From Bifidobacterium callitrichidarum (lineage in GTDB: Bacteria; Actinomycetota; Actinomycetes; Actinomycetales; Bifidobacteriaceae), in NCBI RefSeq assembly GCF_003129905.1, contig NZ_QFFM01000013.1, positions 1-64,000 of the forward strand: 64,000 nucleotides of DNA, written 5' to 3'. The notes beneath the pieces were generated by a model that saw nothing but the letters and a program-made list of their open reading frames with translations, was not told the origin of the DNA and ran no database searches. Each line of letters begins with the position of its first letter. Within the stretch, counting starts at the first letter, position 1. A program made the translations under genes and the position numbers. This document shows, piece by piece, positions 7,441-62,678 of the stretch.

Positions 7441-7468
7441 GTTTGGCCCCGTTAATCCCCCCATTCTT

Positions 7469-7517
7469 GGCTCCCTTTGTCAGGGGAGCTGTCGGCACAG
7501 CCGACTGAGGGGTAGTC
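7469..7517 (+). repeat. Dispersed double-palindrome repeat, copy 1
   Basis: Begins GGCTCCCTTTGTCAGGGGAG and ends GCCGACTGAGGGGTAGTC. It contains one hairpin around CTCCC/GGGAG and a second around GTCGGC/GCCGAC. It lies between znuA and znuC, directly after a terminator. See the copies at 23129, 24931, 42673, 55201 and 61164. Confidence 0.8.
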
Positions 7518-7586
7518 AAACCGTTTATACCGATTTCGGTTCAATAGAACCCGTTTATTCCCTCCCTCGTCACACCAAACCGATAT

Positions 7587-22584: not shown

Positions 22585-22884
22585 TCACGCTTGTTCGCGA
22601 TGGCTTTTCTTGTACCGACGGCGTTCGCGTTCGCTCATGCCGCCCCAGATGCCGAAGCGTTCGTCATGGTCGATGGCCCACTTGAGGCACTGCTCGCGCA
22701 CCTCGCACTTGGCGCACACGCGCTTGGCGTCACGGGTGGAGCCGCCTTTTTCGGGGAAGAACGCCTCGGGATCGGTCTGCGCGCAGAGCGCCTTGTGCTG
22801 CCATGAGACGTCGCCGTCCGGCTTGAACAGGCCCCACAGTTCGTTCCACTGCTCTTCGGCGGAATCGTCGACCACACCCCACAT
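22585..22884 (-). CDS. whiB2: WhiB family iron-sulfur transcription regulator (WhiB2 type)
   Basis: Small [4Fe-4S] DNA-associated regulator of 99 residues. Cluster ligands are Cys34, Cys57, Cys60 and Cys66 (ALCAQTD; RVCAKCEVREQC). They are followed by the sigma-factor-binding turn GIWGGMSERERR and a basic tail. WhiB2/WhmD proteins control septation and cell division in mycobacteria and streptomycetes. The start at 22884 is supported by AAGGAG 6 nt upstream; an upstream ATG at 22908 has no such support. A promoter with TTGACA lies about 45 nt upstream. The gene leads into the glycosyltransferase-DUF5719 pair. Confidence 0.92.
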   Translation of the reverse strand: MWGVVDDSAEEQWNELWGLFKPDGDVSWQHKALCAQTDPEAFFPEKGGSTRDAKRVCAKCEVREQCLKWAIDHDERFGIWGGMSERERRRYKKSHREQA

Positions 22885-22927
22885 GCGACTCTCCTTGCCT
22901 TCGAGCATTTCAAAATTTGACGGTTAC

Positions 22928-22957: not shown

Positions 22958-23090
22958 ATGGTGTCTCGTGTCATTACGCCTGTTTATGAGAAATTGTGCT
23001 ATAAGCGTGTGACTGTCTGCACTGTGCCGGCGAGCTTGGATTCGATTGCGTCCAGGCCCTAGCTGCGGCATACGGCGGGGCTAATTCCAT

Positions 23091-23213
23091 GGCTCTGTTA
23101 AACCAGGATTGACATGCCCCTTATTCTTGGCTCCCCTTGCCAGGGGAGCTGGCGGCGAAGCCGACTGAGGGGTAGTCCAAGGGTATTCATGTCAATCCTG
23201 GTTTAACAGAGCG
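23091..23213. mobile_element. MITE-like element with 26-bp terminal inverted repeats and 8-bp target duplication
   Basis: The left end GGCTCTGTTAAACCAGGATT... and the right end ...AATCCTGGTTTAACAGAGCG form inverted repeats (23091-23116 and 23188-23213) that match perfectly over 25 bp, with only the outermost base unpaired. AATTCCAT occurs directly on both sides (23083-23090 and 23214-23221), an 8-bp target duplication. The interior carries one copy of the dispersed double palindrome (23129-23177) and no ORF. Ends beginning GGCTCT and 8-bp duplications are typical of ISL3-family elements, so an ISL3-type transposase elsewhere may mobilise it. Confidence 0.85.
23129..23177 (+). repeat. Dispersed double-palindrome repeat, copy 2 (inside the MITE)
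   Basis: GGCTCCCCTTGCCAGGGGAG followed by CTGGCGGCGAAGCCG and ACTGAGGGGTAGTC. Nearly identical to the copy at 7469-7517, including the TTCTTGG before it and the TAGTC at the end. Confidence 0.85.
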
Positions 23214-23350
23214 AATTCCATGCCGGGTATGCGTGAGATATGCGCCGGGTATGTGCCGGTCATGCGAAGGAACCGCACCCGTCTGGCCTGTTCGCCGGGC
23301 ACTGTGTCAAAGTGGCTTTCAGACATTTTCGACGGTATGTGGAGGATTGC

Positions 23351-24799
23351 ATGACGCAGGAAACAAGTGGAGCGGACCAGAATATCAATCCGCCGAGCTT
23401 CGTTCCCTCCGCCGGTCGCCGTCAGCGTCCCTCCGCCTCCGCACCGCAGTCCTTTGCTCCGGCGCGTTCTCGTGCGACCGGTGCCGCCGACGCACGTCGA
23501 AGCGATGATGCCGCCGAGGCTTCCCCCGCACGTTCCGTCGCCCCCGGAGACGGCAGTTCCGCCGATTCCGTGACATCTTCCTCACAGCACGCCGTGGGTG
23601 CCGCGACCCCACCACCGAGCTTCTCCCCCAACGCGCGTCGTGCGGCCCGCCGCAGCACGCCGGGCGACGCCATGCCACAGAGCATCGCCCCCACCCGAGC
23701 GCGACGCTCCTCCGGATCCTCCCGTAACGCCGTGCGCCCGGCGTCCGCTCCGGCCGCTCCCCAGATGAGCCGTCCCGCCGCAGCCTCCCTTCGCGCCGGA
23801 CGCGGTTCCGTCTCCCCCGGCGCCGGTGTGGTTCGGGCCGCGCGCCCCCGCCACCGTGCAGGGCGGATCGCGGCCATCGCCGTGGCCGTACTCCTTGCGG
23901 CGCTCGTGGTTTCCGTGTTCGGCGCCTGGACGTGGGTCAACGGCCGGTTGAACAGGGCCGATTGGCTGACCGATTCCGCTGACACGCCCGCCTCCACGTG
24001 GCTGATCCTCGGTTCGGACGAACGTGACGGCTCCACCGATTACGGCGGCGTGGACGATGTCTCCGGTTACCGTACGGACACGATTCTGGTGCTCACCAAG
24101 CCCAAAAGCGGCGCGAGTTCGCTAATCTCCATCCCCCGTGACTCGCTGATGAACGTGGACGGCCAGTACATGAAGATCAATTCCGTGGCCCAGTTCGCCG
24201 GTAACAAGGCACTGGTAGGCGAAATCGAGACCCTGACCGGGCAGCGCATCGATCATGTGGCGCAGATCAAGTTCGGCGGACTGCAGGAAGTGGTCAACGC
24301 GCTGGGCGGCATCGAACTGTGCTACGACCAGGACGTTCAGGACGCCTATTCCGGTCTCAATTGGAAGGCTGGCTGCCATACGGCGGACGGTGCCACCGCA
24401 CTGTCCTTCTCCCGCATGCGCTATGCGGACGCGCAGGGCGACTTCGGGCGCAACGCACGCCAGCGCCAGGTGATCGCGGCCATCATCAAGAAGGCCTCCA
24501 GCGCACAGACGCTGACGAATCCCGCAAAAGTCTCCAAGCTGGCCAACGCCGGACTGGATTCACTGACCGTGGATAATAAGACCACGCCGTTCACCCTGCT
24601 GTCCATGGCGTTGGCATTCAAGGACGCCACCGGCAGCAACGGCATCTCCGGCAGCGTGTACTGGTCCGATCCCGATTACTACGTGGACGGCGTGGGCTCC
24701 TCCGTGCTGTTGGACGACGCGAAGAACACCGAACTGTTCAGCGAACTCGCAGCCGGCACACATGCCGCTGGCACCGTGGGCACCCTCGCCGAAAGCTAA
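23351..24799 (+). CDS. LytR-CpsA-Psr (LCP) family glycopolymer ligase
   Basis: LCP enzymes transfer undecaprenyl-linked glycopolymers to peptidoglycan on the outer face of the membrane. The 482-residue protein has a disordered, basic Ser/Pro/Ala-rich cytoplasmic region of ~165 residues, a transmembrane helix at about 172-194, then the LCP domain. Domain features are LILGSDERDG, GYRTDTILVLTKPKSG, SIPRDSLMNV (conserved Arg/Asp), KINSVAQFAG, GGIELCYDQDVQD and LSFSRMRYADAQGDFGRNARQRQ. GGAGG 6 nt before the ATG at 23351 fixes the start. It is divergent from whiB2. The long cytoplasmic tail is larger than usual. Confidence 0.92.
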   Translation: MTQETSGADQNINPPSFVPSAGRRQRPSASAPQSFAPARSRATGAADARRSDDAAEASPARSVAPGDGSSADSVTSSSQHAVGAATPPPSFSPNARRAARRSTPGDAMPQSIAPTRARRSSGSSRNAVRPASAPAAPQMSRPAAASLRAGRGSVSPGAGVVRAARPRHRAGRIAAIAVAVLLAALVVSVFGAWTWVNGRLNRADWLTDSADTPASTWLILGSDERDGSTDYGGVDDVSGYRTDTILVLTKPKSGASSLISIPRDSLMNVDGQYMKINSVAQFAGNKALVGEIETLTGQRIDHVAQIKFGGLQEVVNALGGIELCYDQDVQDAYSGLNWKAGCHTADGATALSFSRMRYADAQGDFGRNARQRQVIAAIIKKASSAQTLTNPAKVSKLANAGLDSLTVDNKTTPFTLLSMALAFKDATGSNGISGSVYWSDPDYYVDGVGSSVLLDDAKNTELFSELAAGTHAAGTVGTLAES

Positions 24800-24837: not shown

Positions 24838-25051
24838 TTCTGGCTCCCCTCTCCGAGGAGAGCTTCCGAACGCCGTGAAGCCGAGGAAACCCTTTTGGCT
24901 CTTAAACCAAGATTGATTCGCCCCCATTCGGGCTCCCCTCTCTGAGGGGAGCTGTCGCCGTAGGCGACTGAGGGGAGCCCACGATCTATTCCATAAGCCT
25001 CCCCATCAGTCCGCTTCGCGGCCCAGCTCCTCTCGGAGAAGGGAGCCAGAA
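24838..25051. repeat. Nested cluster of three double-palindrome repeats
   Basis: Copies lie at 24841-24893 (plus orientation, diverged), 24931-24979 (plus, preceded at 24897-24925 by GGCTCTTAAACCAAGATTGA, a decayed MITE end) and 25001-25047 (minus orientation). The outer two copies are inverted relative to each other (TTCTGGCTCCC / GGGAGCCAGAA), so the middle copy sits inside a larger inverted repeat. This fills most of the 327-bp gap between the LCP and ATPase genes and includes the likely LCP terminator. Confidence 0.75.
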
Positions 25052-55144: not shown

Positions 55145-55200
55145 AGAAGACAAGGGTAACGCACAATGCGGCATGGCGCTTGTTTCGGGCCAGATACGCG

Positions 55201-55380
55201 CTTGGCTCCCTCTGACGAGGGAGCTGGCAGCGAAGCTGACTGAGGGAGAGAAGCCGAGGCGATACCATCGCCGTGGAATCGTATCGACTGTAAGCCAATG
55301 CCTTTCCCAAACGGCTGACGCCGTACTTCTCTCCCTCAGTCTTGCTTCGCAAGCCAGCTCCCTCATCAGAGGGAGCCAAG
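55201..55380. repeat. Large inverted pair of double-palindrome repeats
   Basis: The left copy 55201-55253 begins CTTGGCTCCCTCTGACGAGG and ends GAGGGAGAGAAG. The right copy 55326-55380 is its inverse complement with a few differences. They flank about 72 bp of unique sequence. The whole can fold into a long cruciform and looks like a small non-autonomous element. I see no convincing target duplication. It separates glyA and proA. Confidence 0.8.
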
Positions 55381-62528: not shown

Positions 62529-62678
62529 ACTACCCTTCAGTCGGCTTCGCCATCAGCTCGTCCAGCAATTAATGACGGGCTATGCCCGCACTTTGTTAGC
62601 TCGACTGTCGTCTCGCACATCGCCTACAAACAGCTCTGCTGTTTGCTTCACGGCAATGTCCCACAGAGGGGAGCCAAG
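62529..62678 (-). repeat. Interrupted double-palindrome repeat
   Basis: 62529-62559 (ACTACCCTTCAGTCGGCTTC...CAGCTC) and 62665-62678 (AGAGGGGAGCCAAG) are the two ends of one repeat unit, which is normally ~49 bp. About 105 bp of other sequence lies between them. The insert contains GCGGGC-type and CAGC/GCTG hairpins and no gene. Confidence 0.6.

Follow-up and report, generated by a model that had tools for sequence, protein, structure and literature searches.

Between the divergent whiB-type and LytR-CpsA-Psr (LCP) family genes of Bifidobacterium callitrichidarum lies a short, gene-less stretch bounded by inverted repeats. What kind of element is it, and which transposase family would move it? 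We addressed these questions within a window of 64,000 nucleotides, the whole stretch of DNA that was analyzed, and in the rest of the genome and its relatives.

A 123-bp Element Between whiB and LCP Genes

The original prediction described a complete MITE with near-perfect 26-bp ends, an 8-bp target duplication and no internal ORF, and this description holds in every part. The intergenic element spans positions 23091-23213 (123 bp), is gene-less, and is flanked by an exact 8-bp duplication (Table 1). Its inverted arms (23092-23116 versus 23188-23212) are complementary at 25/25 positions, and the outermost bases of the 26-bp ends (G at 23091, G at 23213) are unpaired, giving a match of 25/26. 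No ORF of at least 90 aa overlaps the element, and 123 bp is too short for any longer one. Within the window, the 26-bp end has no occurrence outside this element. As single-stranded DNA, the element is predicted to fold into one long hairpin (-44 kcal/mol, z = -11). No promoter or terminator was found within the MITE, where such signals are no more frequent than in shuffles. The flanking LCP gene may have its real start further downstream.

Table 1. Features of the MITE, its flanking genes and the IS1595-type transposons compared with it.
Feature	Position	Strand	Basis
Left target duplication, AATTCCAT	23083..23090	.	Sequence; 8/8 versus right copy
Left terminal inverted repeat, GGCTCTGTTAAACCAGGATTGACATG	23091..23116	+	24/26 to both ends of IS1595-type donor
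Interior: one double-hairpin repeat unit and short linkers	23117..23187	+	Unit also found without MITE ends
Hairpin 1 of unit, GCTCCCC...GGGGAGC	23130..23149	+	Fold; sequence
Hairpin 2 of unit, CGGC-GAA-GCCG	23153..23163	+	Compensatory changes across copies
Right terminal inverted repeat	23188..23213	-	Arm complementarity; genome-wide end matches
Right target duplication	23214..23221	.	8/8 versus left copy
whiB-type gene (PF02467), flanking	22585..22908	-	
LytR-CpsA-Psr (LCP) family gene (PF03816), flanking	23240..24799	+	
IS1595-type transposons, five Bifidobacterium genomes	L069:2252-6758; L118:5928-9243; L119:5932-9859; L120:5487-9407; L121:3253-7178		

One Member of a High-Copy Family

Because the 26-bp end gave 0 matches in 100 shuffles of the window, and its pattern matches the genome 138 times versus 0 for a reversed control pattern, a chance origin of the ends is excluded. 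Pairing of neighboring ends in the fetched loci yielded 44 gene-less elements and one element of 4507 bp; the copies were sampled as loci in a draft genome of 72 contigs, and this catalogue is itself a sample. The gene-less elements fall into two size classes, of 107-124 bp (around 123 bp) and 217-224 bp (around 222 bp). In the alignment, the short elements have common ends and a double-hairpin interior; in the long ones, about 100 additional bases separate the two halves of this interior.

The 8-bp flank pairs are exact in 17/45 cases (the 44 MITEs and the donor described below) and have at most one mismatch in 28/45. For random flank pairings at 8 bp, at most one mismatch was reached in 0.8%; lengths of 6, 7, and 9 gave about 2-4%. 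The target duplications are 78% A+T versus 39% in the flanks, and their positions 1-3 and 7-8 are enriched in A/T. Some of them are badly decayed, hence many MITE copies are old. The window element is a genuine, recently inserted MITE, one of at least 40 gene-less copies in the genome.

Like bacterial MITEs in general, it is short and gene-less, has terminal inverted repeats and a target duplication, occurs in tens of near-identical copies, and would depend on a related element for its transposase, acting in trans. It departs from them in its interior, which is an independently dispersed hairpin repeat and not a deleted donor, and in the presence of two interior variants in one genome and of other interiors in related species. 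The MITE ends had no match in viral contigs, and a phage or plasmid origin was rejected, only a core of about 45 bp being matched in one plasmid and one phage record. Our search of open-access papers found nothing on a Bifidobacterium MITE of IS1595 type.

An IS1595-Type Transposon Carries the Same Ends

The 4507-bp element is a transposon on contig 23 (G000:C23:105251-109757) with its own target duplication, AAAATAAT (8/8). It encodes a 343-aa transposase and a 1029-aa N6-methyltransferase-like protein, together with a RelB-like ORF, and thus supplies the transposase with matching ends that the original prediction called for. The left end of the window copy is identical to both donor ends at 24/26 positions, and the MITE consensus ends (CCAAGATTGACATG) differ at three positions from each of the donor ends (CCAGAATTGACGTG and ...CATA). 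The transposase scores 130.8 bits against the NCBIfam IS1595 model NF033547 (cut-off 75) and 22.5 against Pfam PF12762 (DDE_Tnp_IS1595), below the curated cut-off of 27; no other protein of the genome matches PF12762. Its N-terminal zinc ribbon is above the cut-off of NF050000, the IS1/IS1595 zinc-binding model, and the CxxC motifs of this ribbon are conserved in the aligned homologs.

The IS1595 family is known for 8-bp duplications and a zinc ribbon, and the related Merlin elements have a terminal GG (PMC8101967); the target sites duplicated by the experimentally studied member ISEc69 are 8 bp long and AT-rich, and have A/T at positions 1, 2, 7, and 8 (PMC7835479). The system described here resembles this family and its eukaryotic Merlin relatives in the 26-bp ends beginning GG, in the AT-rich 8-bp duplication, and in a donor transposase that joins an N-terminal zinc ribbon to an IS1595 DDE domain; it differs in that the MITE itself is gene-less. 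Compared with a simple IS, the donors are larger, each having in addition a methyltransferase or restriction-modification gene and a RelB-like ORF. The coding sequence of a 745-aa MmeI-like methyltransferase-specificity gene (L069:36-2273) terminates within the 4.5-kb transposon's left terminal repeat, a position suggesting that the transposon landed at the gene's 3' end.

Relatives of the donor with the same ends on both sides were found in B. saguini, B. rousetti, B. felsineum, and B. aesculapii, three of the four with exact target duplications. Across the five IS1595-type transposons compared, there are 3-4 mismatches to the 26-bp MITE end on both sides. The five have in common their ends, transposase, and RelB-like ORF (intact or partly decayed), and their cargo differs, being of N6/N4 methyltransferase, type I-like with specificity domain, or Eco57I-like kind. 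It is as if methyltransferase/restriction-modification cargo had been swapped behind a fixed mobile module.

The proposed search for the ends across Bifidobacterium covered 112 congeners. The ends occur in 10/12 genomes with the transposase vs 8/100 others (Fisher, 4e-8), a co-occurrence test that ignores phylogeny and counts the transposons' own ends. Orphan MITE families exist in two genomes, here called G089 (86 ends) and G092 (33 ends), with no IS1595-type transposase detected in either.

The Interior Is an Independently Dispersed Double Hairpin

As predicted, the interior holds a single copy of a dispersed double palindrome. Within the window, units without MITE ends lie at about 7450-7525, 55195-55250, and 62538-62676 (the last a long form), and another adjoins a decayed MITE end at about 24910-24990. 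The unit is present in 27/112 Bifidobacterium genomes, with 135 copies in this genome and 137 in G089, and is almost absent from the 395 other Actinomycetota genomes sampled. Depending on the pattern used, the count is 135-203 copies, and GGAG precedes hairpin 2. In hairpin 2, pair 10-18 is G-C, A-T, or C-G and pair 11-17 is G-C, C-G, T-A, or A-T, with 97% paired; on the evidence of these copies, its stem is maintained through compensatory changes.

The solo long form at 62538-62676 (minus strand, about 140 nt) is predicted to be well folded (z = -2.9), and its insert of about 100 nt also occurs inside the 222-bp MITEs. A known RNA family was rejected for the interior, as an Rfam search of the window returned only a tRNA and the long form scored below all gathering thresholds. 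The hairpin unit also has a 44-bp match (89%) on a plasmid of a distant bacterium, Deinococcus grandis (AP021850.1:24492-24535).

A third genome, G080, contains tail-to-tail inverted unit pairs (L233-L236), spaced by about 60 bp with a small palindrome at the center, an arrangement that is REPIN-like. In the MITE of this genome, the unit is joined directly to the end and the linkers are different, and G092 has other hairpins between the same ends. These arrangements indicate that enclosure of the unit by IS1595-type ends probably took place more than once. The original prediction had also tied the palindrome family to transposition, which is right to the extent that the MITE is one vehicle for the unit. 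The MITE is not its general mover: the unit is abundant outside MITEs and in genomes lacking the ends, and the MITE thus accounts for its dispersal only in part. As a candidate member of the REP and REPIN sequences, the unit resembles them in being a short repeat whose hairpin is preserved by compensatory change, in the GGAG before hairpin 2, and in the inverted pairs seen in one species; it differs in having two hairpins and in that no dedicated RAYT-type transposase was found next to it.

Empty Alleles and Age of the Insertion

The comparison of empty and filled whiB-LCP regions that had been proposed could be made with G089, the nearest relative sampled (96% identical in the whiB gene). Its whiB-LCP region is without the element and has a single target copy, reading GGTTCCGT in place of AATTCCAT. 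A second clean empty site in G089 corresponds to the L005 locus on contig 32; the other insertion sites with G089 orthologs mostly lie in diverged sequence and gave no clean empty allele. No insertion common to both genomes was seen in the roughly one quarter of G089 examined. Together with the empty sites, this makes it seem that both species gained insertions after their split. The window insertion most likely postdates the split from this sister species, the formal alternative being a loss from G089 instead of a gain here.

Which Transposase Moved the Element?

We are highly confident that what inserted between the whiB and LCP genes is a non-autonomous MITE belonging to an IS1595-family transposon. 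Its repeats, target duplication, copy number, and empty site, and the ends that it has in common with the donor, are direct observations. Most likely, the 26-bp GGCTCTGTTAAACC... ends are recognized in trans by an IS1595 DDE transposase, which would excise or copy the element and insert it at an AT-rich 8-bp site, duplicating that site. The only such transposase found in the genome is encoded by the 4507-bp transposon with its RelB-like ORF and DNA methyltransferase, and we infer that this resident enzyme moves the MITE copies. As to how the hairpin was captured, the independently dispersed, structure-conserved repeat would have become enclosed between two IS1595-type ends and then been multiplied as the cargo of short and long MITEs.

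The original prediction had named ISL3 as family and donor, with an ISL3 transposase moving a MITE of an ISL3-family element. This was a reasonable guess, because the first six bases (GGCTCT) and the 8-bp duplication are shared: ISL3-type elements of Bifidobacterium likewise start GGCTCTT, the family is known for 8-bp duplications, and some loci begin GGCTCTTCCC with an 8-bp repeat (ACTAAAAG, L280). The rest of the end sequence and the transposase do not match. The genome has a single ISL3 match, to an incomplete gene of 228 aa that covers positions 2-176 of the 370-position ISL3 model and is below its cut-off, and when its flanks were aligned to the MITE end, as had been suggested, at least 9 of the 26 positions mismatched. 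In 30 ISL3 loci taken from other genomes of the genus, which often have ends of their own, such as GGCTCTTCCC... or GGCCTTTCGC..., the best figure was 8 of 26, versus the 3-4 mismatches on both sides of the five IS1595-type transposons. We therefore rejected an ISL3 donor, since its ends diverge beyond the first six bases and no intact ISL3 transposase is present in the genome, and consider this origin very improbable; IS1595 takes its place. Even less credible is that the hairpin repeat is self-mobile in the manner of REP sequences, for example through an IS200/IS605-type Y1 transposase, with the IS1595-like ends as coincidental flanks. The dispersal of the unit without ends in many genomes, its covarying stem, and the tail-to-tail pairs of G080 would fit such mobility, as would three Y1_Tnp genes in this genome, but none of these three has a hairpin unit beside it, and RAYT or IS605 was rejected as the mover of the interior. 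Moreover, the outer ends of the IS1595-like repeats coincide precisely with the duplications and empty sites, and G092 has these ends around unrelated interiors, which refutes self-mobility for the MITE copies but not for the solo units.

The IS1595 assignment leaves a choice of transposase copy. The MITE ends differ from those of the donor, and G089 and G092 are rich in MITEs with no transposase detected, so that another IS1595-type transposase, now lost, may have driven the amplification, the resident 4.5-kb transposon sharing its ends by descent and moving none of the copies. The MITE ends are also nearer to each other than to the donor ends, and a Collinsella IS1595 relative has one end only two mismatches from the MITE consensus. 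The close match of the window copy's left end to both donor ends argues against this scenario, as does the presence of just one IS1595-type gene in the genome. We regard it as possible, at rather less than even chances; as it overlaps our preferred reading (same family, different copy), the confidence placed in the two need not add up to certainty. More speculatively, and on balance doubtfully, the whole may be a two-layer mobile system: a REP-like hairpin with its own spread would have been captured at least twice in IS1595-type ends and would now travel as MITE cargo, the hairpin might aid transposition or insertion tolerance, and the donors might exchange DNA-methyltransferase cargo behind a fixed transposase-RelB module.

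Significance

With these results, a high-copy bifidobacterial MITE family can be linked to a named transposase family and to a candidate donor in the same genome, and a family call suggested by six matching bases is corrected. The empty allele dates the window insertion, most likely, after the species split. The widespread hairpin repeat and the MITE are separate mobile layers, so the copy counts of one are no measure of the activity of the other. The MITE itself is of a known kind; of more interest are its nested payload and the donors that appear to swap methyltransferases.
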